A stretch of DNA of 58,643 nt from a virus. The stretch covers positions 1 through 58,643 of the IMG/VR virus record IMGVR_UViG_3300033552_000006, one strand, 5' to 3'. The notes beneath the pieces are model-generated. The model did not search any database. It had not been told where the DNA came from and saw only the letters and a program-made list of their open reading frames with translations. Positions within the stretch are counted from its first letter, which is position 1, and each line of letters opens with the position of its first letter. This document shows positions 2,951-51,500 of the stretch, one piece after another. Position numbers and translations under genes: made by a program.

Positions 2951-3150
2951 AAATAGAGTATGTAAAGCCGGGAAGCGATAAGATGACTGTTGTTTCTGGG
3001 AGTATGAAAAGCGTTAATAGGGCTATGGACGGGGTTTCAGCAAATATCATGAATATTACATTTGCGACTAATAGTGTTGAGGATGTGGACAAGGCTATAA
3101 AATTTTTGAATAGTATTAAAATTTGTCATGTATTAACAAAATCTTTATAA
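2947..3150 (+). CDS. Small unknown protein (67 aa)
   Basis: Soluble, mixed alpha/beta composition, with the segment NSVEDVDKAIKFLNS near the C-terminus. No family recognised. Its start overlaps the stop of the preceding gene (ATGA). Confidence 0.65.
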   Translation: MKIEYVKPGSDKMTVVSGSMKSVNRAMDGVSANIMNITFATNSVEDVDKAIKFLNSIKICHVLTKSL

Positions 3151-3158
3151 ACTTTAGC

Positions 3159-3923
3159 ATGGCAAAGCGAGACAAAAAGAAAATAATTAAAGTTGCTGTT
3201 ATTGGAAATGGAAAAATGTTACGCGGATTGAGTTTTAATATGGCAGCAATTAATTTAGCGTTGTATGGTTCTGTAGATCCAGATACAAAAATGCTTTGCG
3301 AGGCATCAAAAAAAATGTGGGAATGTGCTTATCCAAAACTTAGAAGAGGAAATAATTTTGGTATTCCAATAATTTTTGGAACGGCAGGAGATAATTTACC
3401 TTCTCAAGAATATTACAAAAAAATGATGCTAGGAGATTTTAATTTTCAAGATGTATTTGTTCCAATTAAACAACTTGTCATTGGAAAAAGCATGATAGAG
3501 CAGATAAATGAAAGTATTAAAAAAGGTGAATATTTACCTCAAGAAGAAATCGTTCGTAAAATGTCTATAAGAGAAGCACCACCGATTCCTTTATTTGAAT
3601 ATTTAAATGAATATCCACTTACACCAAAACAATGTTATAATACTATAAACCCGATTGCAAGGGAAAGTGCTACAATGCGTATGGAAGATAAAGTAAAAAC
3701 ATTAGGGGAAAAAAGATGCGGTGTTAATGATAACGGTGATGTTTATTCTACTCAAGGAATAATCAGAAAAAATACTGCATCGCTTATTGATTTGTGTGAA
3801 ACCATGAGAGGTGATAAGAACACTAATGGTGGTAGTCCGGAAAAACAACGTTTAATTTCACTTGCTCAAACTGCTTATCAAGAAGCAAAAATGTGGGCAA
3901 TCGAAGCAAGTTTTACAGAGTAA
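3159..3923 (+). CDS. Unknown early protein (254 aa)
   Basis: I chose the ATG at 3159 (MAKRDKKKIIKVAVIGNGK), which follows the previous stop by 8 nt. An upstream in-frame ATG at 3123 would overlap that gene and adds residues that look non-coding. The protein starts with a basic stretch and a VAVIGNGKMLRG segment reminiscent of a dinucleotide-fold turn, but GxGxxG is not complete. The rest is Lys-rich with no recognised domain. It precedes the KTSC and chaperonin genes in one tightly spaced operon. Confidence 0.8.
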   Translation: MAKRDKKKIIKVAVIGNGKMLRGLSFNMAAINLALYGSVDPDTKMLCEASKKMWECAYPKLRRGNNFGIPIIFGTAGDNLPSQEYYKKMMLGDFNFQDVFVPIKQLVIGKSMIEQINESIKKGEYLPQEEIVRKMSIREAPPIPLFEYLNEYPLTPKQCYNTINPIARESATMRMEDKVKTLGEKRCGVNDNGDVYSTQGIIRKNTASLIDLCETMRGDKNTNGGSPEKQRLISLAQTAYQEAKMWAIEASFTE

Positions 3924-3925
3924 TC

Positions 3926-4159
3926 ATGGCAAATACAGTAGAGAATTTCGACATGATTGCTGTAAGTAGCAGCAATCTTAAGGCTATTGGTTATAGCGAA
4001 GGGGTGATTAGAATTGAATTTATTAGAGGTTCTAAGTATGACTACTCGCCTTGCACAAAAGAAGAATTTGTTCAAGGGGTAAACTCAGGGAGTGTAAGTG
4101 GTTGGTTCAATACCATCAAGGCTACCAAGAACGCTAAAAAAGTGGAGAGTGATGGCTAA
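3926..4159 (+). CDS. KTSC-domain protein
   Basis: 77 residues from the ATG at 3926; the longer reading frame overlaps the previous gene. Residues ~11-66 fit the KTSC domain: V-S-S-S-N-L-x-x-I-G-Y, then IRIEFIRGSKYDYSPC, then GSVSGWFNTIK near the end. KTSC is a short domain of unknown molecular function, often next to or fused with nucleic-acid or lysyl-tRNA-synthetase-like proteins. The gene overlaps the next by 8 nt. Confidence 0.85.
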   Translation: MANTVENFDMIAVSSSNLKAIGYSEGVIRIEFIRGSKYDYSPCTKEEFVQGVNSGSVSGWFNTIKATKNAKKVESDG

Positions 4160-4616
4160 GATATTTAACCCAAATACAGAACCTATAGAACTGGAGAATT
4201 TACCAAAGGGGAATAATAGAAAAGTAAGTGTTTTATTGAACTATATTTTGGGTTCAGTTTTGATTTTAGCATTAGGTTTATTTATAATTATTATAGGGGG
4301 AAAAAAAGAAGAGATAGATAAAGATAAAGGAATTATGGGATTAGAAAAACTAATAGAAATGCAAAACGGAAACATACTTACCCAAGAGGTAGAATATGAA
4401 ACCAGTAAAAAGATAGATCCGAAAGATACTTCGGGCATTTTCTTTGAAGTAGTAAACGGAAACGACAAGTTTCAAGAAGGGGATTTGGTAAAGTTCAACC
4501 ACCGCTTTAGAGAGCTTCAGCAGATTGAAGGAAAAGAATACTGCGTAATAGATCCAAGTCAAATCCAATTTAAAATCAAAAAAGAAGATGTCAAAGCAGA
4601 TATACTTAAGCGATAG
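4152..4616 (+). CDS. Membrane-anchored GroES-like protein (candidate co-chaperonin)
   Basis: 154 residues from the ATG at 4152. Layout: short N-terminus, one strong transmembrane helix (~26-49, ILGSVLILALGLFIIII), a charged linker, then a C-terminal domain (~70-142) that tracks GroES. NGNIL (72-76) falls where GroES has its GGIVL mobile loop, GIFFEVVNG (95-103) matches GEVLAVGNG, EGDLVKF (109-115) matches VGDIVIF, and IEGKEYCVIDPSQI (125-138) matches the last GroES strands. It overlaps the start of the phage GroEL by 29 nt, the usual groES-groEL order. The homology is my alignment by eye. The membrane helix is foreign to known GroES. A cell-envelope protein with a chance beta-barrel is the alternative. 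Confidence 0.65.
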   Translation: MAKIFNPNTEPIELENLPKGNNRKVSVLLNYILGSVLILALGLFIIIIGGKKEEIDKDKGIMGLEKLIEMQNGNILTQEVEYETSKKIDPKDTSGIFFEVVNGNDKFQEGDLVKFNHRFRELQQIEGKEYCVIDPSQIQFKIKKEDVKADILKR

Positions 4617-6138
4617 TCAAACTAAGATTATGGAAGGCATCAACTTACTGGCTGATGCAGTGCAAAGCACATTAGGTCCTTCGGGAAAAACAGTTATTAT
4701 TGCCGAGGAAGGTGACGAACCGTTTGCCACCAAAGATGGGGTAACGGTAGCCAATTGTATGAACAGTCGCGATCCTGTTATAAATGTGGGAATGCAGCTT
4801 ATCAAGAAAGTGGCAAGCAAAATGGATTTTGATTCAGGGGATGGTACCACAACGGTAACGGTATTGTGCCGGGCACTCATAAAACATGGGCTGGAACTTA
4901 AAGCCAAAAAAGGCTTTGACGAACATGCTTTCAAAGAAACTATTTACACTTGTTTGGGCAGAACCATTTATGAATTGAAAAAACATTCAAGAGAAGTTTT
5001 ATTGGCAGATATCGGAAAAGTAGCTCTTACCTCCACCAACAACGACAAGTTCCTTGCCAACTTATTTCAAGAAGCTTTCAATAACTCTGGAACAGAAGGA
5101 TACATCAACATCGTGGAAAGCGTTACCGGTAAAAGCTACGTCGATATCATAAAGGGTTATGTAGTGGAATTGGGGTATATGGAAAGAGCATACGCCAATA
5201 ATCCACTGACAGGTTTCTTTGAAGCACCCAAATGTTCAGTGCTTGTTTATGACAATGAATTCACAAGCAAAAAAGAAATCATGGCGCTGATACGCGTAAA
5301 CAATGGTTATACAAATCCTTTGCCTATATTAATTATTGCAAAAGACTATTCCAAAGAAGTTCAGGGAATTGTAGAGTTTAACAATATGGACCGAACAGGC
5401 AACAAGATATGTCTGATTAAGAACCCGTTGCGTAACGACGAGTACAATACCATGTTGCAAGATATTGCACAATACACAAATGCAGAAGTGGCAAGTTCTT
5501 ATAGCGAGTACGATACGGAACTTGGAATAGCTTATGACTTGGTAGTCAAACAAGGCTATACAGTAATGGGAGAAATTCCAGAAACCGAAAGAAAAGTATT
5601 AGACACTTATCTTTCCTTGTTAGAACAAGCTTCGGAGCAAGAAAAATCAGGACATTATTCAGCCATGATGCTCAAAAGAGTTGCCCGTATGCGCCATGGA
5701 GTAACCACTTTTTACGTTGGTGGTGATTCTGATATTGAACTCAAGGAAAAAAAACACCGAGTAGAGGATGCTTATAAATCCTGTAAGGCAGCATTGAAAG
5801 ACAATGTAATTATGGGCGGTGGGCAAAGCTTGGTTCTGATCACCTTAAATTACAATCCAAAAGAGGAATATGAAATGGCTTTTTATAAAGCTATGTTTGA
5901 ACCTTTCAATATTATTCTAAAAAACTCGCTTCACAAAGACGATGATCGTGTAAATGTTTCCAAGCAAATTAAATGGGGATATGGTTACAATGCCAAGACC
6001 AGGGAATATGAAGACTTGCATGAATCAGGGATTATAGATCCGGTGAGTGTTCAAATCAATGCTCTTACTAATGCAGTAAGTATTGCCCTTACCGTTTTAT
6101 CAACAGAATGTTTAATCGTGGAGACACCAAATCAATAA
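4588..6138 (+). CDS. groEL: Phage GroEL-like chaperonin
   Basis: 516 residues, a group I chaperonin subunit expected to form ATP-driven rings that fold phage or host proteins in the cytoplasm. Key motifs are present: LGPSGKTV (29-36), DGVTVA (50-55), the ATP-binding GDGTTT (84-89), and the second nucleotide site RVEDA (391-395, Asp394 matching GroEL Asp398) with MGGGQS (409-414). The apical part is divergent (for example GYVVELGYMERAYANNPLTG aligns with the substrate-binding segment). It stops at CLIVETPNQ, exactly where bacterial GroEL continues into the Gly-Gly-Met tail, so the flexible tail is missing. Start overlaps the GroES-like gene. Confidence 0.95.
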   Translation: MSKQIYLSDSQTKIMEGINLLADAVQSTLGPSGKTVIIAEEGDEPFATKDGVTVANCMNSRDPVINVGMQLIKKVASKMDFDSGDGTTTVTVLCRALIKHGLELKAKKGFDEHAFKETIYTCLGRTIYELKKHSREVLLADIGKVALTSTNNDKFLANLFQEAFNNSGTEGYINIVESVTGKSYVDIIKGYVVELGYMERAYANNPLTGFFEAPKCSVLVYDNEFTSKKEIMALIRVNNGYTNPLPILIIAKDYSKEVQGIVEFNNMDRTGNKICLIKNPLRNDEYNTMLQDIAQYTNAEVASSYSEYDTELGIAYDLVVKQGYTVMGEIPETERKVLDTYLSLLEQASEQEKSGHYSAMMLKRVARMRHGVTTFYVGGDSDIELKEKKHRVEDAYKSCKAALKDNVIMGGGQSLVLITLNYNPKEEYEMAFYKAMFEPFNIILKNSLHKDDDRVNVSKQIKWGYGYNAKTREYEDLHESGIIDPVSVQINALTNAVSIALTVLSTECLIVETPNQ

Positions 6139-29412: not shown

Positions 29413-32400
29413 ATGGCAAAGCAAAATAATACTCCTGATTTGAATGATGTAGAAATCCACAACTTCTCAAAAGGCTGGACTACAGACTTGGATAATCATG
29501 CAGAGAAGTCCGACAGTTATTCGGATGCTTGGAATGGAAGACTGTACAGCGCAGATGGAACCCTTGCATTTACTTCTATTAATGGTTCTAAGTTTGTTTA
29601 CAATAACGAATTGGTTGTTCGTTACAATGGATCATTTGCTTTCAAAGACGAGTTGATTGTTTTTGCTAAAGGATTGTTTCCTGTTGGTGTTGTAGAAACA
29701 GAAACTAAAATAATTACTGAAGTTACTGTAAAGAATTTTTCGATAAGCAGTGATACCAATGCAATTAATGGAATTGATTTCGCTTCTAATTTTCAACAAA
29801 GTCAAATAGAGATTACCGTTCCGATACCTACAATAGATGATGCTGATTTTAAACAAAATCTGACAGAAGTAGAATCAGTAAACACTATTGATGTTTCTTA
29901 TGGAAATTTGTTTAAGACTTTGACTTATATGCCGCAGTCACCAACTATATGTGCTTTAAATAGTTCAGACAAACCAATCAACAACAAAACTTACAACGAT
30001 GCTATATTTTCTTTTTCTTATAACGAACAAGGATTGCTTGTCAGTAAAATTATTTATGTTGGGGACTTGAACATTCCTTTGAACGCGGTTATAACTACTG
30101 AAGGAGTGGAAGAAAACACCTATTATAAAAGGGTATATTTTAGCGATTACTATAATTCTACCAGAGTAGTAAATATAAAGGATCCAAAATTATCTACTAG
30201 AAATTCTTTTGAATTTGACATCAAAACAAAAGGAATGCTGCTTAATCCAAGAGTAACTTCTATATTAAAAAATGGACAGTTAAAAGCAATGACTGTTTTT
30301 TATACTATGAAATTAATCACTGAGAACGGACAGGTTTCTGATTTTTCTCCATTGTCTAAAGCAATCAAAATTGGGAAAGGTTCTGGGGGGGAATTCTCAG
30401 GAGGAAGTGTTAGTGAAATTACCGATAAATCTGTAAAAGTAGATTGCTATATTCCGGACTATAAAAATTTCAAAGAAGTACAATTGATTGCCATTGAGTT
30501 TGAGGCCAACAATGTTCCCACTACTATCAGACTTGTGGGTACTAAATTGGTAAATGCCATTGTGAGTTTTGAGCATTTTGGTTCAGAGCCGGAGTTTCTC
30601 GAAAATATAACTTTGGCTGATTTATTCAAGAACAGTATCAGTTGGAGATACAATTCTGATTTTGCTACCAAAAATAATAAACTCATGGTTGTAGGGCTTC
30701 GTAACGATCCGTTGTTTATGAACTCAAAGAATGTAGCTCTTGATTTTTCTTTGTCTAGTTTTGATGCTTCAGGGAATACCCATGCTTCATTGCTTAATCC
30801 GGAACCTTCCAAATACAATTTGATTGACGCTTTAGCTACAGAATCTTTTTTCTATGTACAGCGTAAGTTATACAGAAAAATTGAAGTGTTCGGGAATTTT
30901 ACTATGAAGCTTTATAACAATCTGACAGGAGAGTTTTACGAATTTAATTTTCCAGAAATTATTTATGATTATGTGGACCAAACCAATATTATTGCCGGAT
31001 TCTTAATCTCTAGACAATCCATAAATGACTTTGCCACAAAATTCCCTAATCTTAGAATAAAGAGATCGGGAACAAGTATATTGTTTGAACCAATCAATGA
31101 ATTGATAAAAACAGATTTTCATAATTACAACTTAACTTTTAGCACCAGTCAGGTAATTATTGATTTAGATAATGATACTGAAAATAAAACTATTGCATGG
31201 CCGACTACTGACTATGCAAAAGAAAGCCGATTGATTTACGGAGGAGTATCAAATGGATGGTTCAGCGGTAACGGAGTTCGCGTTACCATGCACAGTGTTT
31301 CTGATAATGTTATTAGCAAGAATATCAATTGGATGAACGGTCTTGCTTTGCCTTTGCAAATCAAACAACCTACTCTTAAAAAAGGGGTAATGAAAGGAGA
31401 GATATATCGTACTGGAATACAATGGTACAAAAACGGAAACAAATTATTCACTACAGTCTTAGGAGATTTAAAAATTCCTGATATCGGTCAGCCTAAAAGA
31501 GAATTAGATGTAGAAGGCAAAGTAATTCCTTCAACAGAAAAGTATAACAATTGGAAAGTAGTTGGAGAAGAAATGTATGCCGAAAGAATAGAACTGCAGT
31601 TTGATATTAGAATCAATTGCGAACTTTCCAAAGAAGTAGATTCCTATCAGATTGTTTATGTAGAAAGAAGTGAAAACAACAGAACCATATTGGCTCAAGG
31701 AATATCAGCGCCACTAGAAAGAATAGCTGACTTTCAACAAGGCGGTGGAGATTCTGCTATGTCTATGGAAGAAACTATGGTGAAAAAATGGATGCTTCCA
31801 AGTAACGGAGGTCCAGTGTATGATGAAACAGGATTACGTGCTTATGATGTAAACCCTGATGTAGACAACGAACAAAACAGAGTAGTTACCAACAGAAAAT
31901 CATTTTACTTTGACAGTCCTGATTTTGTATATGAAAAAATCTCAAGTAATTTTGTAGAGTCTTGTGTATTGGAATATATAGAAACAATTGCCACTGATCA
32001 TGACAGACACAATATCATCGGTGGATACAACAGAGATACTTGTGGATGGGGAGGAGAAAATGGAGAACCAGGTAATGCGGGTAATCCCGGAACCCAATGC
32101 TATTTTTCCAATGGAAGCAAAAACAACGAAGGTCCTTCCCCTTTTGGGTTGCCTAAATTTTCTCAAAAGATACCTTCTAATTTGCTTTCAGGTAGTGAAA
32201 TCACAAGACCGTTTTACGTAAATGCAAGTGTATTTGCAAATCGATTGAGACAAAGAACTTATACTTCTTTTCAGAATAAAATTTCTGATCAGTATAAATA
32301 TTTTATTCATAAATCTCAATCTGCTCTGCCAGGGGAGATTCTTTCAGGGTACAAAATGAATGATAAGTTTGATTATGCCAATCATGCTTTTACATTAGCG

Positions 32401-34101
32401 GCTCCGGGTTGGTTCTTTCAACAAAGAGCAAGACAAGCCACTTATATTGATACCGCTTCTTTGTTCCGAGTGGCTAACACTGCCGGAGGAAGGGAAACTA
32501 TTTTAATTAAGACCGTTGAGAATTTCTTTTCTACTGCTAACATTGCCCAGACTCCGTACATAATTAACTCACAAGTTAACTTTGGAACTGCAACAGGGCG
32601 CAGAGACGTTTTAAAAGGAAACGATGCTTACATTGTATCGAATTTAAAAAGAAACAATGAAGATTCTATTTATGGTGGCCGTACCGAGTTTGCTTATGCA
32701 TCTAACGAATACATTCCTCTTAGCGATGCTATTCCTATTGTTGCCAATAGAATTGTTTCTCAAACGATTTATGTGGAAGGTGACACTTATTGCAGTTTGT
32801 ACTTGAGAAACAAAAGTTCTTATCAAGGCACAGAAGTTCCAGAACAAATAGGGTTTCATTGGTCACAAGCATCTACTAAAGAAAACAGAAAGTATCAATA
32901 CAATAAATTCAACGCTTGGTGTTATGCTGTAGTATTAGAATCCACTGTTGAACCAAGGCTAAATAATTCTGAAGAGTTCTATAAATTTAGTAAAGCCATT
33001 AATTTTGATTATGATGAATTGTATAATTCTGCTTATCTGCAAGAGAATGATTTGAAAAAATCAATTCCTATCCCTTACAACTTCAAGGACGATCCAATTT
33101 TAAATAATATCATAGCGGTTTCTAATCCTAAATCAAGTGGAGACTATGTGGATGCTTGGACTGAGTTCTTGACAAATGAATTCTATGAACTGGACAAGAA
33201 CATGGGTTCTGCATTGAATATTGTGAAAGACAAAGATACCATTTATGTAATCCAAGAAAAGCAGACTTCCCGTATTCAAGTAGATGAAAGAAACTTCATT
33301 ACTCCCGACAAGGGCGGTGCGGCTATTCAGGTTGCTCAAGGAGGAGGAACTTCGATTAGCGGGCATGAGATTCTCAGTGATTACGGAACGGGTCTTAGAA
33401 GGGCTGTAATTGAGAGTCCTTTTGGATTTGTGTTTTTTGACGAGTCCAAAAATGAAATGGTAAAAATTATAGATCCATTGTTTCTGCCAAACAGTCTAGC
33501 CCTTGAGATAAAAAGAATGTTTGGCAACGACAAGGTGATTGGCGTGGAAGGATATTACGACGAGGAATTCAAGGAAACAAATCTTAGGTTTCGAACAGTG
33601 GGCAATAATAACTTTGTGATTTCTTACAATGAATTGTTAAAAACTTTTAACGGTAAAATTGCTTATGACAATGATTTGTATTTCTCTTTTCAAAATAAGA
33701 TACTAGCGCCTTATTCTAATTCAAAAAATATAGGAGAATTAAATCATGGTGCAGAGTTATTGTTTTTTGGAGTTCAGAAAAATTTGAAATTAAAAGTAAT
33801 TTCAACTCCCAATTTTTATGATACCAAAATAAATAAAGGAATTGCTGTTTATGCGAATATTAATTATCCGCTGTTAAAGACTACATTTATAACCTCATTA
33901 GGACATGTTAGAAATATACTCGGAACTCATCATTGGTATAAGCTTAGAGAAGGAGTTCATACCTTGCCCGCTAAGAATCCAACAGACGAAGATGATATCA
34001 GAGGAGAATGGTGTTCTATTGAAATTGAAGCTGAAAGTAAAGACAACAAGCAAATTAAAATATTCTCATTATTGAACTTTTTTAGAAAATCATATAAATA
34101 A
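29413..34101 (+). CDS. Large tail protein (crAss-like muzzle / P22 gp10-like stabilisation protein)
   Basis: 1,562 residues. The N-terminus HNFSKGWTTDLDNHAEKSDS followed by DAWNGRLYSADGTLAF resembles P22 gp10-type tail stabilisation proteins ('..N.....G...D.d......p.sy.dA.N...'). The same position is filled in crAss-like phages by the muzzle protein that closes the tail tube. The body is beta-rich with many NG/DG turns. A Gly/Asn-rich loop (~875-905) and a late conserved stretch IQVAQGGGTSISGHEILSDY lie in the C-terminal third. Virion structural by context. Cargo genes follow immediately. Confidence 0.8.
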   Translation: MAKQNNTPDLNDVEIHNFSKGWTTDLDNHAEKSDSYSDAWNGRLYSADGTLAFTSINGSKFVYNNELVVRYNGSFAFKDELIVFAKGLFPVGVVETETKIITEVTVKNFSISSDTNAINGIDFASNFQQSQIEITVPIPTIDDADFKQNLTEVESVNTIDVSYGNLFKTLTYMPQSPTICALNSSDKPINNKTYNDAIFSFSYNEQGLLVSKIIYVGDLNIPLNAVITTEGVEENTYYKRVYFSDYYNSTRVVNIKDPKLSTRNSFEFDIKTKGMLLNPRVTSILKNGQLKAMTVFYTMKLITENGQVSDFSPLSKAIKIGKGSGGEFSGGSVSEITDKSVKVDCYIPDYKNFKEVQLIAIEFEANNVPTTIRLVGTKLVNAIVSFEHFGSEPEFLENITLADLFKNSISWRYNSDFATKNNKLMVVGLRNDPLFMNSKNVALDFSLSSFDASGNTHASLLNPEPSKYNLIDALATESFFYVQRKLYRKIEVFGNFTMKLYNNLTGEFYEFNFPEIIYDYVDQTNIIAGFLISRQSINDFATKFPNLRIKRSGTSILFEPINELIKTDFHNYNLTFSTSQVIIDLDNDTENKTIAWPTTDYAKESRLIYGGVSNGWFSGNGVRVTMHSVSDNVISKNINWMNGLALPLQIKQPTLKKGVMKGEIYRTGIQWYKNGNKLFTTVLGDLKIPDIGQPKRELDVEGKVIPSTEKYNNWKVVGEEMYAERIELQFDIRINCELSKEVDSYQIVYVERSENNRTILAQGISAPLERIADFQQGGGDSAMSMEETMVKKWMLPSNGGPVYDETGLRAYDVNPDVDNEQNRVVTNRKSFYFDSPDFVYEKISSNFVESCVLEYIETIATDHDRHNIIGGYNRDTCGWGGENGEPGNAGNPGTQCYFSNGSKNNEGPSPFGLPKFSQKIPSNLLSGSEITRPFYVNASVFANRLRQRTYTSFQNKISDQYKYFIHKSQSALPGEILSGYKMNDKFDYANHAFTLAAPGWFFQQRARQATYIDTASLFRVANTAGGRETILIKTVENFFSTANIAQTPYIINSQVNFGTATGRRDVLKGNDAYIVSNLKRNNEDSIYGGRTEFAYASNEYIPLSDAIPIVANRIVSQTIYVEGDTYCSLYLRNKSSYQGTEVPEQIGFHWSQASTKENRKYQYNKFNAWCYAVVLESTVEPRLNNSEEFYKFSKAINFDYDELYNSAYLQENDLKKSIPIPYNFKDDPILNNIIAVSNPKSSGDYVDAWTEFLTNEFYELDKNMGSALNIVKDKDTIYVIQEKQTSRIQVDERNFITPDKGGAAIQVAQGGGTSISGHEILSDYGTGLRRAVIESPFGFVFFDESKNEMVKIIDPLFLPNSLALEIKRMFGNDKVIGVEGYYDEEFKETNLRFRTVGNNNFVISYNELLKTFNGKIAYDNDLYFSFQNKILAPYSNSKNIGELNHGAELLFFGVQKNLKLKVISTPNFYDTKINKGIAVYANINYPLLKTTFITSLGHVRNILGTHHWYKLREGVHTLPAKNPTDEDDIRGEWCSIEIEAESKDNKQIKIFSLLNFFRKSYK

Positions 34102-39515: not shown

Positions 39516-42500
39516 ATGGGAAAGATTTTTAAAAGCAACAATTTAGATCCTGCGGGAGTAAACATTCCTACTGCAGAACAAAATCAAGCAGAGTTCTTAG
39601 ATATGCAAAGCAAAAGTCAAGAAAATATTGACATGCAAACGGCTGACTATTTAGCTAAAGAAAAAAAGAAACAGTACGGTGATATCAATGCCGCTACACA
39701 AGATTCAGGAATGGCCGGCATGCAAGAAGAATTTCAAGGCATGGCTGGAACTGAAACTGCAATACAGAATCAAGACCAAAGCCAATTACCTAAAGCCTAC
39801 AATATGGATGATATCCATAGAAACTGGCTTGGGCAAACAGGAGAGTCTTTTATGAAAGGACTTGGCGATACTGTTATTGGCAGTACAGGTGATTTACTAA
39901 ATTTTGCTACTGCTCCGCTAGATGGTTTTACTATGCTTGAAGGAAATATACTTGGTAATGCTTTAAGAGAATATGGAGATGAAATGGCTGACGAGCATAC
40001 TACATTTCTTAAAAAGAAATTAGAAGGTCAAGAACTTACTTGGGGTTCTTTAGCTGATCCTGATTTTTGGAGTACTAACGTAGCTGAAATGATTCCAATG
40101 GCTTTGGAGTTTATGGTAACAGGTTTTGGTGCGGGAGCCGCTGCAAAAAAAGGAGCTGGATTTTTTGTTAAATCATTAGGCACTGAAGCTAGATTATTAA
40201 AAGCCATGCAAACATCAACTGATGTTGCAGAAGGTTTGGCCGGAAGCGGTAGACTTGTAAAAGATATCATAGGAACTGGTAAAGGAATTAAAGACTTTAG
40301 TCTTGCCAAGTATCTTACCCGAAATGTTGATGGCGTTCTTGAAATGTCAAAGTTCAGTAAAGAATTTGCGGGCGCTGCTGGTGCGGGTGCTGCAAACAAT
40401 TTACTTACAGGTGCAGTAAATGGAATGGAAGCTCATAGAGAAATGGTTTCTCAAAATGAACAAGATATAGCCAAAGGAATAGCACCTCGCTATACAGAAG
40501 ACGAAATGGCACAAGTTGCTACAGGAACTTTTACAAGAAATATGCTTTATGCTCCAATGGATATGATTTCTTGGGGATTGAGTTATGGCAAAGCCGGAGA
40601 AAAATTAATGGCGGGAATGTCTAAAAAAATGGTTTTAAAACCTGCTGAAGAAATAGCCAAACAAACTGCCGCTTCTTTTACTAAATCTACTTTCCCATTA
40701 GTAAAAGGAATTATGGGTGCTGCAGGTCATGGATTCATGGAAGGAGCAGAAGAAACTTTCCAAGAAACTTATGAAGAATGGGCAAGGCTAAAATCCAGAG
40801 AAAAACACTTAGGAGAAAAAGCTCCTGACTATTGGGATTTTTATTTCTCTAAAGAAAACAAAAATACTAAAGTAGCTTCTTTTGCTATGGGCGCTCTTAT
40901 GGGTGGAGCAATGAATCTTAACTTCAAAAAAGCTGCCGAAGAAGGATTAAATTACAGAGATCGTTCCGAAGTATTAAGAGCTACTATTGATGTTAATGAC
41001 AAAGGTGGACAAAATGCTAAAACGTATCACATCAGAAATCAAATGATTGACTTATTGCATGATGATAAGGTTGAGCATTTTGATGCTTTTATGTCATCGT
41101 TATTAGCTAAAGGAACTATTGATGAAGAACAGCTTAATGAATACACCAAAGAATTTCAAGAAGTAAGTGTTGATTATAATGCTGCTGCTAATTTGAACGT
41201 AGCCGGTAAATATGCTTTGGCTGAGAACACCATTAAAGCAAAATCATTGTCACGATTTATCGAAAATGAAAAAGCTTCTTATGCTGAAAAGCAAGCTTCC
41301 CTTAAAGAAAATTTTGATGGAGAAGAAAACAACGCTGTCTTGCACCAGGAACAACTTCAAGAATTGGCTGATTTAGAAAATACAATGGCCGAGGCAGAAA
41401 ATCCTATTACAGCTGAAAAAATAAAGCACATCAAAGAAAGTATTGCTGAGCATAAAAATTCTCCAGTACAAGCGCAGTATGCTAAATTAGAATCGGAACA
41501 CAACCAACAAGTGGAAATGTTGAGTTTAAATTTAGCAATGGCTAATGCTAATAGAATGAATCTTATTTCAGGAAAATCGGCAACGCCTTTGAATATTAAA
41601 TTCTGGAAAAATTCAAATGGAGTAGAACAAGTTTTTATTACTGAGGATTCTAAAGAATATTACGAAGAAGGATTTAGTTATTCCAATGAAAATAAAAACG
41701 ATCCTAATTTAAAAGATAAAAAATCAATGTCTGAGGGTGACTTGCAATCGTTCCAAGCAGAAGGTGATGTTCTTGCTGGATTGTCTGATAAACAATACGA
41801 ACAATTTGTCAACATGAGTTCTGAAGAAGTTTTTGAAAGTGCTAAACGCAACCACGAAAACATGCTTAAAAACGCAAGCAAAGAAACTATTAAAATTTAT
41901 GACAAGATAATGGGCAAAGGCAAAGAGCTTGTCGGAAAAGTTAAAGCTAAACTAGATGCTAATGGCAACCCTGTTCTTGATGAAGAAGGGAATCCTGTTA
42001 TGGAGCCGGACACTGCAGAAACAACTCCTACTTCAACAAAACCTATCAATCCTAATATTTCTCCAAGTGGTGAAGAAAATGCTTATGAAAAAGCATATCA
42101 AGAAGGTGGTTTAGAAACTGCTAAGGAAGCTGAGGCTAGAAAAATTGCTGAAGAAGAAGCTAAGTTTAAAGAAAAACAAAGTACAGAGCCTAAAACTAAA
42201 GAACAACAAATTGAAGATTTTTTCAAAGGAATGAACGCTGATGAAGGTGCTCAAAAAAAAATGAAAGAATATGCAGAACGTTTGGCCAACGGTGAATCAG
42301 AAGAAAAAGTTTTTGAAGGAATAAATCTTGATGGAGCTATAGCAAATGGTACCAGAGAATATTTAAATATAATTCAAGATTCTCAGATTGATGAAAATTT
42401 AAATCAAAAACCGACTTACAGTGTTGTTAAAGACAAAGTTACCGGAAAGTATTCTTTAGTTGATACGGTAACTGGCGAGCCGCACCCTAACGGTAAAACA

Positions 42501-45500
42501 TACACTACTTCTATATCTGCTAAAAAAGATTTGGGTAACGCTTCTGTTGTTGGCACTGTTGTCAAAGGTGCTTGGACAGGAACCAAAGGCGCTGTTAAAT
42601 TAGCGGGCAAAGGGTTAAAGTATGCTGCTAAAACAGGTCGTGGAATTGCCAAAGAAGGTGGCGAAATTATAGAAAAAACTCAGGAAGAAATTCAAAATGC
42701 ATTAGACCAAAAAGCTAAAGAGAAAGCCAATACGCAAAACGTCAATCAGGATGCCATGCGTAAGAAAATCATGCATGATGCTTATTACAGTTCCTCTGCC
42801 AGAAACATTGCCAACAATCCTAATGCTGCTGTTTCTAAACAAGAATTAGATGCTTACCTTGATACTAAAATAGCGGCGTTCAAATGGGGGCCAAGAGCCA
42901 TCGAAGAACAGTACACTATCAATAGAATCTTAAAAGCAAAAGGTATTGATGTTAATGTTGTAATTGCCCAAAATCTATTTTCTGCAGTAGGCACCCATGC
43001 AGTAGGTTATGCATTGGCAAGTACTATTTATATTGATGAAAAGGTTTGGAATCAACCAGCTGTATTTATGCATGAAATGTCACATATTCATTACCAACTT
43101 ACTCAAAATACTCCGGCTACAAAAGCAGTAGTAGAATTTGCTAGAAGGGATGCTAAATTGGTGGAAAAAGTAGAACGTTTATATGCTACTAAAGTAATCT
43201 ATGAATCAGAAGGTAAAAAATTTACCCTTGAAACATTCTTAAATGATATTGGCGGACAAGAAGCTTATCAAGACGTAATAGATGAACATGGAATGGAAGC
43301 GTTTTTAGCAGATATTGGTATCACCAAAGCGCCTGATTCAGAACAGTCAGTAATCAATGAGGAATTGTTCACTCATACTCTTGAAGGCCCAATGGCTAAA
43401 AATTTCAACCAAGCCTTAGAACCTATTCGTGAAAGAGGTAGAAAAATAGAATCTAAAAAATGGTGGAGTTGGTTAAAAGGAAACCAAGTTACTTTTGAAC
43501 CATTTGCTTTGGATGTTGCTGAAAAATTAAACAAAGGAGTTGCAATAAACCGTAACGATTTGTTTGAACACGTTATGAGTAAGTTTTCAGAAGAAGTGGC
43601 TAAAAAACCAAAGTCAGCGTTTACTGCTTCCGGGCATGCTTCTATTGTGGACATGCAACAAGCTAATGCTATAGCAAACCATCAAAGAATTACTGCTTCT
43701 AAAATTGAGCAAAGACAATCTTACGATGCCGAAGAAGCTAAGAAAAAAAACAGAGCAACTACCTATGCTAGACTGGCTCAGAAAATCAAAGCGGATATTA
43801 ACATCAGCATGAAAGATATGTCCGAGTTGGAACGTAGAAACGAAACAGAATTCCAATTGGAAGAACTGGAAAACTCTATGTTGGAAGAAGGGGCTTTCGA
43901 TGATTACGAATTAGCCAAGTCTGTTCAGTTTAGGGGAGCAACTAGAATACTGAACAGCTTTACCAAAAGTTTGAATTATGTGAAACGCCAACGTTTTGCA
44001 GCAGCCGATGGTATCGCTTCTGATTTTAATGAAGATGATTTGTTAGATAGAGACGCGTTAATTTCAGAGTTCTATAGTCTTGCCTTTGAACACAAAGGAA
44101 ACACTAATGGATTTATAGATTCTATCGAAACCAGTCAAGTGGAAGAAGTGTATCAGTTCAATCAGTACATGGAGAAAATGCACCCGGGAGAGAAACATAT
44201 GTACTTGAGTTCTATGGCTCACGTAATGGCAAACACTCAAACCATAAGTGCTATCAAAAGTGTAGTTACCGCTGATGGGAAATGGGAAACAGTCAATGCT
44301 CTATCCGAAACAGAAAACCATAAGGTTCAAAACCACATGGCTAAAATGGAACGTGATGAAAATTTACATTACAACCATAAAACGGACGAAAATGCATCGC
44401 TTCCAGTTCAGAATTATCAGTACTTTATTGATGCCTACAATGACATCAAATCAGGTAATCAAAATGATGAAAGCTATTTAGGAATCCTAAGAATGATTGC
44501 TCCAACAGGAACTAAGTTTTCGGCCTTGATCAACAACCAAACTATCAACATGAAAGGGCACAATATCAATGTGAGAGTTCTTATTGATAAAATGGTAAAA
44601 TCCAAAGTGGCCGAAAATGAAAACGGTAAAATTGCAGTGTACAAACTAAAACCGTTCATTGAAGCCATTGTAGACAGTAACCGTAAATTCACTTCGTATT
44701 CTGTAATCCAGAATGCTGAGGGGAACATGGAACCAAGCAAGATTACCAACAATCATTTATTGTCAGAGATTAATGCTATGAATGAGTTTCTTGTCAAAGA
44801 CGCAAAAGGCAATTTCCCGACCTTTAAATCATTTAAGGAAAGATATTCCCATTTGTCTGACGCTTCCAACAGAACGCATGAAAACCCTGTTTTAAGAGGT
44901 ATCTACGATAATGCTAAAAGCAATACTGCTAGACCTTCTTTAACTCAGTATGCTGGACTTACGCACTTGCAGAACGGAGCTAACTCTTTGTATAAAAACT
45001 CAACTGACTTTGCTCAGACTATTGAGGATTTTATGTTGTTCAGCAAATATACTTCTAAGAACTATGTTCAGACTTTGAGTGCTATGGCTGACAGTCCAAG
45101 AAAGTTCATGATGACAGTTGAACGTATCTTGCACAAAGATGCTTTCAACTCTAAAAATGAATTGACTTTAAAAGGAAAACGTTTGCTTGAATCCTCTTGG
45201 AAAATTTATGATAAATCCAATGAAAATCTTTCTGGAAAAAAGAAAGCAATGACTATGCAAACTCAAGGAGAATTCTTTACCAAGTTTGATCAGTCCGTAA
45301 GCAAGGAAATTGCTCGTTGGAATGAGAATGCTAAAGACCTGATAGCTAACAAAACAATTGAGCCTACTTATTTTACTAACGGAAAGCTTAATGCCAACGG
45401 AGAAAATAAGATACGTGAATTTGTATTGAACCAAACCGTTAATGGAATGGCATTGGCTGAAATATTCAATCCGGGTATTCCTTTTAATGATATCGTAAAA

Positions 45501-48500
45501 CGTAACAAAGGAAACAGTTCTCCTGTAATCACTTTCGGAAACAAGAATCTTAAAATGGAAGCTATTCCAATTGACGATACTAAATCTGAACTTGGTTCTA
45601 ACTCTGGTATGTATATGACTCAAGCTATGGCTCAAAAAATAATTGATGCCGGACTTGGAGTCTTTGATTTGAATCATGGATTAAAATTATTGAACTACCA
45701 TGTAGAGAGAGATAATCCAAATTTTAAAGGAGTATCTGCTTACTTCAAAGGGTACACAACTATAATCTCTGAGGAGACTTTAATCACTGAACCTGGACTA
45801 AAAGGTATTTACCAATTACTTACGGAACGTGAAGAAAAGTACAACGGAGAATATTTCGATAAGTATGGAGTTAGTCCTTCTTTAGATATTACCAATGGGG
45901 AAGAAAACTACATCAACTATGCCGTTCCGTATTCTGCCATTAAAAGCGATTTGTTTTCTGCTGAGCAACAACAATCATTATCAGGTATAACTTATGAAGC
46001 ACTCGAAGCCAATTTATCAGACCACCAAAACAGATTGCAAGGAGACAAAGAAACTGTTACTGAATACGATAAAATGCATGCTGCTTTGGATGCTCTTTAT
46101 TATGGCGATAATGGTTTCATGGGCTTATCTACCAATAATTTTGGGCCACAACAAATAATGGATAAACAAACTGAAGAAGCGGTAACGCCTGTTCAGTTTA
46201 TGTCCTCTGTTATTGTAAACGGAATGGTTGGCAACAACTTAGAAATGGGAGAAGAAATTCAAAAGCTTATCCGTACCGATATGAAGAATAACTTGGACGA
46301 GGTTATCTCTGAATTGGGGAACATGGAACCGGCTAAGTACAAGGCTTTCATCTTAAAGAATTTGGATTTGGAGAATATGGACCAAACCCAAAGGCTTATG
46401 ATTGAAGAATCCCTTACTAATCTTAACCATCCGGCTGTATCTGACTTTATAACTAATACATTAGCCAATAGATTAAAACAAGCCGGAAACAAGCTTAAAA
46501 CAAATGGTAGTGTTGCACAACAAAAACCATCATTACATTTTAAATACGGTAGAGGTAAGAACTATTCTATTAATGGAAGAACAGGACTTGCTGGATTTAC
46601 AGACAGACACAATGCCGATGGTAGTGTAGGAACTATGGTTAATGAAATCGTATTGCCTAAGCACATGAAAGATAAAGTTATCTTCAGACAGTACTTGGAC
46701 GAAAACGATCCTCAAGCTATGCGTATCATAAAAGCAAATGCAGACTTAATGGGTAAGTTTACCAAAGCTACTACCGAAAATGATGCTCAAGCTAAATCTG
46801 ATGTAATGAAACAAGTGGCTTTAATGATTGCACGTTCCAGACATGGACAAGCAAGAACAAAGGGTTCTTACGGGCATGATGTAAATGATTATATCGGAGA
46901 GTTTTACGAAGATGGCGTTGCTAAAGGTTGGTTTGTTCGCGGAGAAAGTGTGATGGGTACTCGTATTCCTTCGCATGGACCAGCATCAACAGGAGTCTTT
47001 GAAGCAGTAGATTATTTGGAAGGAGAAGGAAACCAAACTATTGTATCAGAAGAATTTTCAGATATAGCCGGTTCCGATTACGATGGAGATTCCTTGTTTA
47101 TTCAACGCAAAGGAAAAGAGACGCCAAACTTCAACCAAGCTTTGGAAAAAACAGTTGACTTATGGACTTCTCCGGGAATGAAAAACCAAATCAAAGCTAA
47201 GATTGAATTTGAAAAAGAAGTTGAATCAGTTATCGGTGATCAGAAAGTAGAAAAGCAAATGCCTATGTCTCCGGCTTACCACCGAGAAGCGTACAACAAT
47301 ACCATGATTTCTAAAAGAAATATTGGTATCATTTTCAACACCCACCGTATTGCAAATTACTTGGCGGCTTACAATGTAAAATTGAACAGCCCTATTAATA
47401 TCGATGGAACCAGAGTTGATGCTTTTAGCGATAAGGAAGTAGGACAAGAGAGTAGAAACAATCAATCTGCTATGCTTGCCAATATCATTTTGGATAATAC
47501 CAAATGGGGTTTCGCTGATGCTTTGGGATTAAATGACCAAACTATCAACCAGTACTCTTTACTTACTAACATGGGATTCTCTTTAAAGCAAATCAATGGT
47601 ATCATGAACTCAAAAGCGGTTAAGGTTTGGAACAAGCACCAAGCCAATAACCAAAACCCGTTCGCTACCAAAATGAAAAATGCTGATGTAAAGAAAGCCA
47701 TACTAACGGAATTAGGTATAGACGATTCTAAAGTGAAAGCAATCAGTATTAACACTAGTGCCGATAAGATAAATTCTAAAGAGCAAATGAAGCACATTAT
47801 TCAAATGATGGAGACATTGGAAACCATGAACGCTGATATTTTACATATCTCTAAAATTATGGCAGGCCACAAAGGAATTGAAAACGATCCGTTTGTATTG
47901 GAAAAACAATTGTCGGCATTTGATCAAGTAATCAATTCTGATAAAAACAATGCTTTGCTTACGTTCCCTAAAGCGTTCAGAGATAATCCGGACATTAGTG
48001 CTTATCACGATAATGCTTCTCGCATATTGGAGATTATGAAAAAAGCCAATACCATTTACAATAAATCAACTTCTGAGTTGATTGCTGTACTGGACGAGAA
48101 AATAGGTTTTGATAAAAAACTTAGCAAAAGCCAACAGGAACGTGCTTCAGATATCATCAAAAGATTTACTACTTCCAGAATGTTAGGGTTAAACAACCTT
48201 ACTTCTACGGAGAAGCTTAAAGTAAAAAGACAATTGTTTAAAAACATTCAGGCTTATGAAAAAATGTTGCAAGAAACTAAGCTTCCGGGCAACAGAGGAC
48301 TTACGCAATTGGACAAAAGCGTATTGTTCAACAGAGCATTGAATATCAATATCAAACATGCACCTGGACAAAAAAACAAAACTGAAGGAGCTAAAGTTTT
48401 TGACGAAAAAAGCTATGTGTCAGCAAATCCAAGATTCTTTAATGAAAGCATTACAGAAGAAGATAGAATTGCTGTACAACAAGAGTACAAAGCATTGCCT

Positions 48501-51500
48501 CAAAATATCAAAGATGGATTGCTTACTTTGGATTTAATGAAAAATGGATTAACAGGAAAATTATCTTTGTCAAGTATTTTTGATGAAGGTACTAACCATG
48601 ATATTTCTACTTATGCTGCACATGATAGCAAAACCAAGAACAATCCTATAGATAAAAAAGTGATGGATAAATTAGAAAATCTTATTATCTCTAATGAATT
48701 CAAAACTAGCAAAAGCATTCAAGACGTTAGTGGTACTGTATCTTTTAAAGCGGGAGATAACTTAGTCTCTTACATCAGAACCAACAACAAAATTGTATCT
48801 GATGGATTGCAAAGAGGTAATGGAATGATATTCAAAGTAAATGGCAAGCCCTATATCTACGAAGGTATTTCCAAAGAAGAAAAGGACATGATCCGCCAAG
48901 GAAATCGCGATGCTCAAACACAACAACAAGCTTTTACTACTGCTTTGTTCGGTAAAATAAAACCATACAAAGTTTTTGAAGGAGAGGATATCAATCTGGA
49001 AGCTATTTCTATTCCTGATATTGATGGAAGCAGACCCACTTACAAAAGTAAAAAATCAGAGCAGTCCACTAAAGCGGGCCACATGACTGAAGCTACTGTT
49101 AAGTTTGAATCTACTATAAAAAAAAAAGCTAACGTAGGTAACGCTTCACTTATTGATTACCATAACTACAATGACGTTGCTCCCTTAAATCAAAGGGAGT
49201 TTAACGTTGTTATGGAATACGACCAAACCATTGACGACGAGCAAAAAGAATTAGTTTATAAAACCTATCTCGACGAAAAGAAAGAAGCCAATGACTTAAT
49301 GGCTACCCACAATCAAGAAACTTTTTCCAAAATGACTGATGATAATTTGAGCAAAGCCTATAGCAAATTTGCCCAAAAAGATATGTATGCCTATTCTGTT
49401 ATTACTACACCGCTTATCATGGAACTAGCGAGTCGTATGGGCGTGGAGCAAAGTGCCTTAACAGAACAGTTTGAAGATGGCAAGGATATTAGTCTTATGG
49501 ACAGTTGGCTAAACAACAACAACATCTCCTCCAATCATCCCGTTACCCAAAACCTTGTAAAGAAGCTTGGAGAAGAATACAAAAAATTCGTATTGGAAAG
49601 AGGGAAATATATTAAGAGTATCAATACGGCTACCGATGCACTTTACCAAGAGAAATTTGGGCTTAGCAAAAACAAATATGTTCGTATGGGGCAAAGAGTA
49701 GTACAGTCTTTGGTGAACAATAGAATTGAAGTTTATGAGAAGCTATACGGAAATTTGATAGAGAGGGAAGAAATTATTGATGCCAATGGAACCACAAAGA
49801 AAACTTTGAAGTTTAAAAGTGAAGATACTATAAAAGCTTTGCACAAATCAGGTAAAATCAGTCAGGCTGAAATGGACTTTTATACTGTATTTAGAAAAAC
49901 CACTAATCACTTAAAACAATTTGATGGAAACGATAAAACCCGTAAGGATTATATACCACATACTGCTATGGGTAACTTTGAACAGTTCGCCAATAGAGGT
50001 TTGTTAGGATTAATGGTTAATAGCAAGGGAATTGACAGTGTAATTGAGGACGTAAAAGTATATACAGATATTGGTGGCAAAAAAGAATTAATATCGTTTA
50101 GAGACGCCAAAAATCATTACAATGCTTTGGCTTATTCCAAACAACAAACGCCTAAAGATTTATTGAATTTTGAGAAGTTGAAACGTACTGCTAAAAAATT
50201 GCAAAAAACAGGAAAGAACGAAGATGGTTCTCGTTTGATTTATAGCAATATGCAAAATGAGACTTTGCTTGGAATGAGTCCATTGAGTAGGTTTGCAAGT
50301 TCTCGTTCTAATACTGCCGAAATAATGCCCTCAATGGATTTAAATAAAGCATTAGTGGAATACGTCAACGCAAGTATGTTTACTAATGGAAATGAAAGCT
50401 TCAAAGGGTTCAAAGCTATGATGCCAATGATTGATGGAGTGATGGCTTACAATGAAAAAAACGGATACCAAAATGCGTACAAGTATGTAAAAGAAGTGGT
50501 AAAAGAAGGGTTCATTATGAAAAAAGACCAAATCACTTTCAGCAAAAATACTGATGCTGTAATCAATGGCTTGGTTAAAAGCAATACGATGTATGCTTTG
50601 GGATATAAGGGTATGCTTATAGGGAAAGGGATATATGCCATTGGTAACTTAGCCGTTGGTAAGTACATGAACATAAAAAGGGAAGGTGGAAAGTCTTGGG
50701 CTGTTGGAGAGGCTCGCTATTGGGGAGTGGACAAAGGCATCAGCTTAGATACTTTGGATAGACGTAGGAGAGCAAAAAACATACTTTCCAATTTAGGGTA
50801 TATGGAAGCTGACTTCTACGATGATGTAGATATTGAAGCTAAATCAGGTATCGACAATGTATTTACACAAATGGCTTTACTGCCAATGTCGGTGACTGAA
50901 AATTGGATTCAAAAAAGTCATATGCTTGGAATGCTTACCGATGAAGAGTTTGACAAGTTTGATGAAAAAGGACAATACAAAACGGGGGAAACACAAATTC
51001 AAATGGAGCGTGTTCAGAAACTTGAAGAGCGAGTTAAGAACTCACATGGTAAGGGGTTTAGTCCTACAGACCAAAGTAGAATCCATAGGTATGCAGTAGG
51101 TAAAATGTTCATGCAATTTTCAAGACATTTACCTGTACAAATCAGAGAGCGATTTGCTAAAGAGGATATTGATATGAACGGACAAAAATATATCGGTTCA
51201 TTGAGACAAGTGGGTAAAACAGCTGTTGATATCTTCAACAATCGTATGACTCCTGACAAATTTAAAGAGTACTATGCTGACTTGGAACCGCATCAAAAAG
51301 AAGCGTTGCTTGCTGGACTGAGAGGTATGGCACTTATGACTACTCTTGGAATGATAGCGGGCCATTCTACTGATGCAAGTCAAATGACTTCGGGAACTGA
51401 TGCCTCTAGTGTAGCCAGTGGGGTTATGAGTGATGCAAACATTCACTTTGACTTAGACAGGCTTGGACTTAAAACGATACCCCCTTCGGTACGTTCTGCT

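Follow-up and report, generated by a model that had tools for sequence, protein, structure and literature searches.

To our knowledge, GroES lids have been described as soluble proteins. Among virus-encoded lids, gp31 of T4 works with the host GroEL, and the GroES genes of Flavobacterium phage immuto, Bacteroides phage DAC16 and Cellulophaga phage phi38:1 lie at or near groEL. The GroEL of phage EL had no functional interaction with Escherichia coli GroES, and its lid is not known (PMC7185714); this chaperonin has been listed in a table as not requiring a co-chaperonin (PMC7185714, PMC5934643), and the authors allow for a distant phage GroES homolog (PMC7185714). In the open-access papers searched, we found no description of a "membrane-anchored GroES". 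Here we analyzed a viral record of 58.6 kb (58,643 nucleotides; IMG/VR record IMGVR_UViG_3300033552_000006), referred to in full as the window, in which a gene for a membrane-tethered GroES-like protein (TM-GroES) overlaps a phage groEL. The best reading, to which we assign a probability of about 0.6, is that TM-GroES serves the phage's own GroEL as a lid that is anchored in the membrane and has been re-specified.

The phage and the gene pair

The terminase and portal of the window match PHROG families, the closest GenBank terminases are mostly from Crassvirales (22 to 28% identity), and a 1,562-aa protein (29413-34101) matches the crAss muzzle family crAss_MUZ (PF25731, E 1.2e-63). Because crAss-type terminase, portal and muzzle proteins are all present, the window is, as judged by these matches, a divergent crAss-like phage. 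The 4,012-residue protein proposed earlier as a folding client corresponds to an open reading frame at 39516-51554. A 266-aa protein at 3123-3923 has a C-terminal match to Acb2_Tad1_hairpin that is barely above the cut-off (E 2.1e-6). Among the terminases compared, that of cr272_1 (L098:8905-10962) has four in-frame stops under table 11, and TAG was translated as Q for its alignment.

The gene order upstream of the terminase is a KTSC gene, TM-GroES, GroEL and four small genes. The features of the pair are as follows.

3926-4159, KTSC-domain gene, directly preceding TM-GroES
4152..4616, + strand, TM-GroES, 154-aa membrane-tethered GroES-like protein (open reading frame kept in L001, L009 and L015; GroES fold; hhalign 75%)
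4588..6138, + strand, phage GroEL, group I chaperonin of 516 aa (PF00118, phrog_5725, catalytic residues)

The length of 154 aa is counted from a conserved ATG, the mechanical open reading frame beginning at GTG 4098, and the two genes share 29 nt (4588-4616). Three further IMG/VR contigs cover the region (L001, L009 and L015), and all three keep the pair, in which the TM-GroES gene overlaps in the same way with a gene for the same GroEL (56 to 65% identity). TM-GroES is thus not a chance open reading frame. The pairing of a membrane-tethered GroES-like protein with a phage GroEL, first proposed in a sequence-only reading of this DNA together with the protein's length and the overlap, withstood the checks set for it, and every relative covering the region retained both the transmembrane segment and the GroES domain. 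No more family members were found in viral contigs beyond these three, and a search of the bacterial and archaeal genome set found none at the sensitivity used. In GroEL trees the four phages were grouped at 100/100 on a long stem, with the exact sister affected by long branches.

The next relatives are L114 to L116, whose terminases are 45 to 48% identical. They carry a soluble GroES-like gene upstream of GroEL, with one gene between and no transmembrane segment, and these proteins aligned with GroES in hhalign at 81.6% (E 1.1e-5, 84 columns). Because this GroES-like protein lacks the transmembrane segment and yet lies near GroEL, the anchor is, on present sequences, special to the four-phage clade, and a lid-like gene near GroEL is common more widely. 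About a dozen other phage GroELs have a soluble GroES gene beside them, and none of these GroES genes was found to encode a transmembrane segment. The gene between the GroES-like gene and GroEL encodes an uncharacterized protein of about 235 aa (L114:5944-6660, L115:2337-3038). The KTSC gene precedes TM-GroES in the four-phage clade, and a KTSC-like gene directly follows GroEL in L114 to L116; the KTSC/GroES/GroEL block thus appears to have been rearranged between the two groups.

The window yielded no second GroES. A 187-aa frame of the 80.5-kb relative matched PF00166 below the cut-off (E 9e-5), but its Cpn10 match (E 0.033) was no better than that to FMN_bind, and we rejected it as a chance match. 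As both viral records may be fragments, an ordinary GroES may be encoded elsewhere in the genome; the host GroES could also serve.

The C-terminal domain has a predicted GroES fold

The AlphaFold2 (AF2) model of TM-GroES, built from an input alignment of 4 sequences, contains a six-strand domain at a pLDDT of about 80 to 87, with a very short roof segment. Its parts map as follows.

4374..4394, + strand, barrel strand 1, residues 75-81 (AF2 secondary structure)
4395..4436, + strand, residues 82-95, YETSKKIDPKDTSG, equivalent of the mobile loop, flanked by strands 75-81 and 96-102
4437..4577, + strand, remaining GroES-like barrel, residues 96-142 (AF2, hhalign and Foldseek)

In Foldseek searches against the PDB, the top 29 of 29 matches of the domain model alone and the first 28 matches of the full model were all GroES/Cpn10, and Cpn10 ranked ahead of other GroES-fold families. 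The best match of the domain model was 1wnr (E 4.9e-3, probability 1.00), Foldseek E-values reaching only about 5e-3 for models from 4 sequences. Matches in BFVD were mostly viral GroES. In hhalign, the family aligned with a reference of ten GroES sequences, none of them from the TM-GroES family, at 75.3% (E 2.5e-5, 41 columns of the C-terminal half). Six neighboring gene families from the same four contigs did not exceed 0.3%, the reversed profile gave 0.2%, and 60 column shuffles stayed at or below 7.2%. When every open frame of the loci was searched with this canonical GroES profile HMM, the L015 copy was found weakly (E 0.048, positions 23-89), in a match that spans most of the domain. Pfam returned 0 families for TM-GroES and no PF00166 above the cut-off in the window, and PHROGs gave no match for the protein.

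On the combined strength of the AF2/Foldseek, hhalign and L015 profile matches, the C-terminal domain very probably has a GroES fold, and this is a well supported part of our reading. The resemblance might instead be a modeling artefact of a small beta barrel, considering that the models come from four sequences with Foldseek E-values of about 5e-3 and that the sister GroES-like genes show no direct profile similarity to the domain. However, all leading PDB matches are Cpn10, ahead of other GroES-fold families, the decoy-controlled hhalign result agrees independently, and the domain's gene adjoins GroEL, which together make an artefact very improbable. Profile-level homology of the domain to g096 of Cellulophaga phage phi14:2 or to the lids of L114 to L116 was looked for and was not detectable.

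The fold search of the soluble part returned a GroES barrel, as the sequence-only reading had anticipated, and three of its segment correspondences were right, namely, GIFFEVVNG with GEVLAVGNG, EGDLVKF with VGDIVIF, and IEGKEYCVI with IDNEEVLIM. Its placement of NGNIL at the GGIVL mobile loop was rejected, since strand 1 of the predicted structure opens with NGNIL, which aligns there with HDRVIV of GroES.

Membrane anchor, topology, and a possible second start

Two features lie upstream of the domain.

4245..4301, + strand, codons for residues 32-50, the predicted transmembrane segment (hydropathy and AF2 helix 22-55)
4335..4337, + strand, ATG codon of M62, inside the gene and between anchor and domain, where a second start might yield a soluble form of 93 aa

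TM-GroES has one predicted transmembrane segment (residues ~32-50, Kyte-Doolittle 2.76), and the N-termini of all four family members have one strongly hydrophobic segment each (Kyte-Doolittle 2.1 to 3.5). The anchor sequence differs among the four and the hydrophobicity is kept, a pattern expected if hydrophobicity is the conserved property. No cleavage motif or lipobox conserved in the four N-termini was found by sequence inspection. With 154 aa and a predicted transmembrane helix in all four members, the family departs from the usual description of GroES as soluble and about 10 kDa.

Membrane placement is a prediction, and so is the side on which the domain lies. Within 15 residues of the transmembrane segment, the K/R counts of the four members are 4, 6, 6, and 3 on the C-terminal side versus 3, 3, 2, and 3 on the N-terminal side. 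This bias weakly favors a cytoplasmic C-terminal domain. If the segment were instead a signal anchor, the domain would lie outside the cytoplasm and would not cap a cytoplasmic GroEL. The small size of the bias, tied in L015 and 4 versus 3 in the window, would suit such an arrangement, but the N-side count exceeds the C-side count in no member, L001 and L009 are clearly C-in, and the gene overlaps that of a cytoplasmic GroEL. We therefore regard external placement as quite improbable. The linker between the transmembrane segment and strand 1 is about 25 residues, a length that would let a ring sit at some distance from the membrane.

Another reading gives the gene two products. Starts at M62 would yield a soluble capping lid of ~93 aa, and the full-length protein would supply minority anchors in mixed rings or be regulatory. 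The M62 ATG is aligned in the window, L001, and L009, the sequence upstream of it is A-rich and resembles true starts in this genome, and M70 is invariant among family members. However, the ATG of L015 is near by and unaligned, and the evidence for the start is weak, because the K/D/E/N-rich composition of the linker makes an A-rich context expected anyway. A soluble short form may thus exist, but we consider two products rather unlikely; they would overlap with an anchored lid and not exclude it.

The phage GroEL and its lid-binding groove

The adjoining gene is the unmistakable group I chaperonin that the sequence-only reading had described. It matches PF00118 (Cpn60_TCP1, E 2.4e-44) and the PHROG chaperonin groEL (phrog_5725, E 2.4e-102), its nearest solved relatives in phmmer are group I chaperonins (3e-72, residues 6-514), and GDGTTT, RVEDA, and MGGG are all present. 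The ATPase residues D52, D87, and D398 are intact in all four GroELs. The weight that had been placed on the missing GGM tail is not warranted, as 70 of the 73 GroELs compared also lack it.

In E. coli GroEL, the lid contacts lie around 199-204, in helix H (about 230-241), and in helix I (257-268). The groove was compared with that of 73 other GroELs, nearly all from phages, to which the GroELs of L114 to L116 were added later. Two segments of the window GroEL are concerned.

5167..5190, + strand, window residues 194-201 in a groove segment (Y-M-E-R in place of E. coli Y199-L-S201-P202)
5350..5394, + strand, window residues 255-269 in groove helix I (Q, E, and F in place of L259, V263, and V264)

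In E. coli numbering, the four phages have D/E for S201, R for P202, K for I230, D/E for V263, and F for V264. D/E at 201 or 263, R202, K230, and F264 occur in 0 of the 73 other GroELs; the sister GroELs of L114 to L116 keep S201 and V/I263 and have R202 in two of three. Of the hydrophobic groove positions checked (Y199, Y203, F204, L234, L237, L259, V263, and V264), 199, 204, 234, 237, and 264 are apolar or aromatic in the four phages and 259 is mostly polar, with 263, like 201, acidic.

The proposed partner of this groove has changed as well. The loop at residues 82-95 follows the pattern YET[SY]KK[IRK]DP[KQS]DT across the four members, is basic in all of them, and with 9 of 14 columns invariant is the best conserved stretch of the whole protein. 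The hydrophobic GroEL-binding triplet (I25-V26-L27 of GroES) is absent from it; because this classic triplet is missing, capping is not readable from sequence. A conserved basic loop opposite a newly acidic groove suggests a rebuilt contact, the loop and groove changes counting as a single correlated event because the four phages form one clade.

The main rival is that TM-GroES is a lid-fold protein with another use, serving another partner or the host GroEL, and that the phage GroEL works lidless, as proposed for EL. A loop without the hydrophobic triplet would fit, as would the altered inter-ring positions (452/461/463/464) of the phage GroEL and the GroEL of phage EL, for which E. coli GroES was not a functional partner (PMC7185714). 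Against it, the gene is strictly paired and overlaps with groEL in all four phages, the loop is conserved above every other stretch, the groove of GroEL is altered in this clade, and the sister phages carry a soluble GroES-like gene near GroEL. We judge it unlikely.

Proposed mechanism

The computation supports the GroES fold, the predicted transmembrane helix, the gene pair with its overlap, the conserved loop, and the altered groove. From these we infer lid function. In the anchored-lid reading, the phage would encode a two-part chaperonin in which its own GroEL is combined with a lid of GroES type, the latter held on the inner membrane by the N-terminal helix and the ~25-residue linker. The lid domain would most likely face the cytoplasm, assemble as a ring, and cap the phage GroEL through a remodeled contact, in which its conserved basic loop would meet an acid-gaining GroEL groove in place of a hydrophobic triplet on a hydrophobic groove. 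Folding of phage proteins, presumably membrane-side clients, would then be located at the membrane, and the altered contact might keep the lid specific to the phage GroEL and off the host GroEL. In other systems, phage heads are assembled at the inner membrane, which makes the capsid a plausible client by analogy. A more tentative proposal, which we hold as somewhat doubtful in its full form, is that tethered lid and GroEL evolved together towards a new contact of partly electrostatic nature and form a membrane-docked folding chamber with no cross-reaction with host GroEL/GroES.

If true, a membrane-fixed lid would mean that group I chaperonins can be positioned within the cell, and it would offer a natural test of a chaperonin that works at the membrane or hands proteins to it. 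It would also be an example of a lid contact rebuilt without the hydrophobic triplet, and of a private, virus-owned protein-folding chamber on the host membrane.

GroES-like proteins in other phages

Soluble GroES-like proteins with long loops, poorly detected by Pfam, occur on ten crAss-like contigs (L143, L156, L159, L161, L163, L169, L181, L184, L187, and L101:4248-4649). As a group they aligned with GroES at 94.9% (E 4.6e-8, 85 columns). No GroEL was found in these ten loci, and for that reason the proteins may be gp31-like lids for host GroEL. In the crAss-like phage phi14:2, which has GroEL and no Pfam-detectable GroES, g096 (L004:7767-8156) is an unannotated 129-aa protein, seemingly identical to S0A2F3 (129 aa, matched by protein length), a GroES match in the Foldseek viral search. 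A 201-aa protein upstream of phage GroEL (L045:1337-1939, L050:3123-3725) apparently has two tandem GroES domains, with PF00166 above the cut-off for the C-terminal and weak for the N-terminal domain. Because divergent phage lids escape Pfam, counts of phage "GroEL without GroES" are probably too high.

Comparison with known systems

TM-GroES resembles GroES/Cpn10 (PF00166) in predicted fold, strand order, and a gene adjoining groEL. In contrast, GroES/Cpn10 has no N-terminal transmembrane anchor, carries the hydrophobic loop triplet, and is Pfam-detectable, and the very short roof is a feature of TM-GroES. T4 gp31 and the GroES of immuto, DAC16, and phi38:1 are likewise virus-encoded and of GroES type but, unlike TM-GroES, are soluble. 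The crAss-like soluble GroES-like proteins (L114 to L116; cr118_1 gp59, a "putative chaperonin"; phi14:2 g096) come from related phages and share the neighborhood near the terminase, and L114 to L116 and phi14:2 also have GroEL, as in the window; however, these proteins have no transmembrane helix and are not detectably profile-alignable to the TM-GroES domain. The chaperonins of phages EL and AR9 are, like that of the window, divergent phage GroELs, but phage EL has no known lid, and cycling from double to single rings has been reported for it (PMC5934643, PMC7185714).
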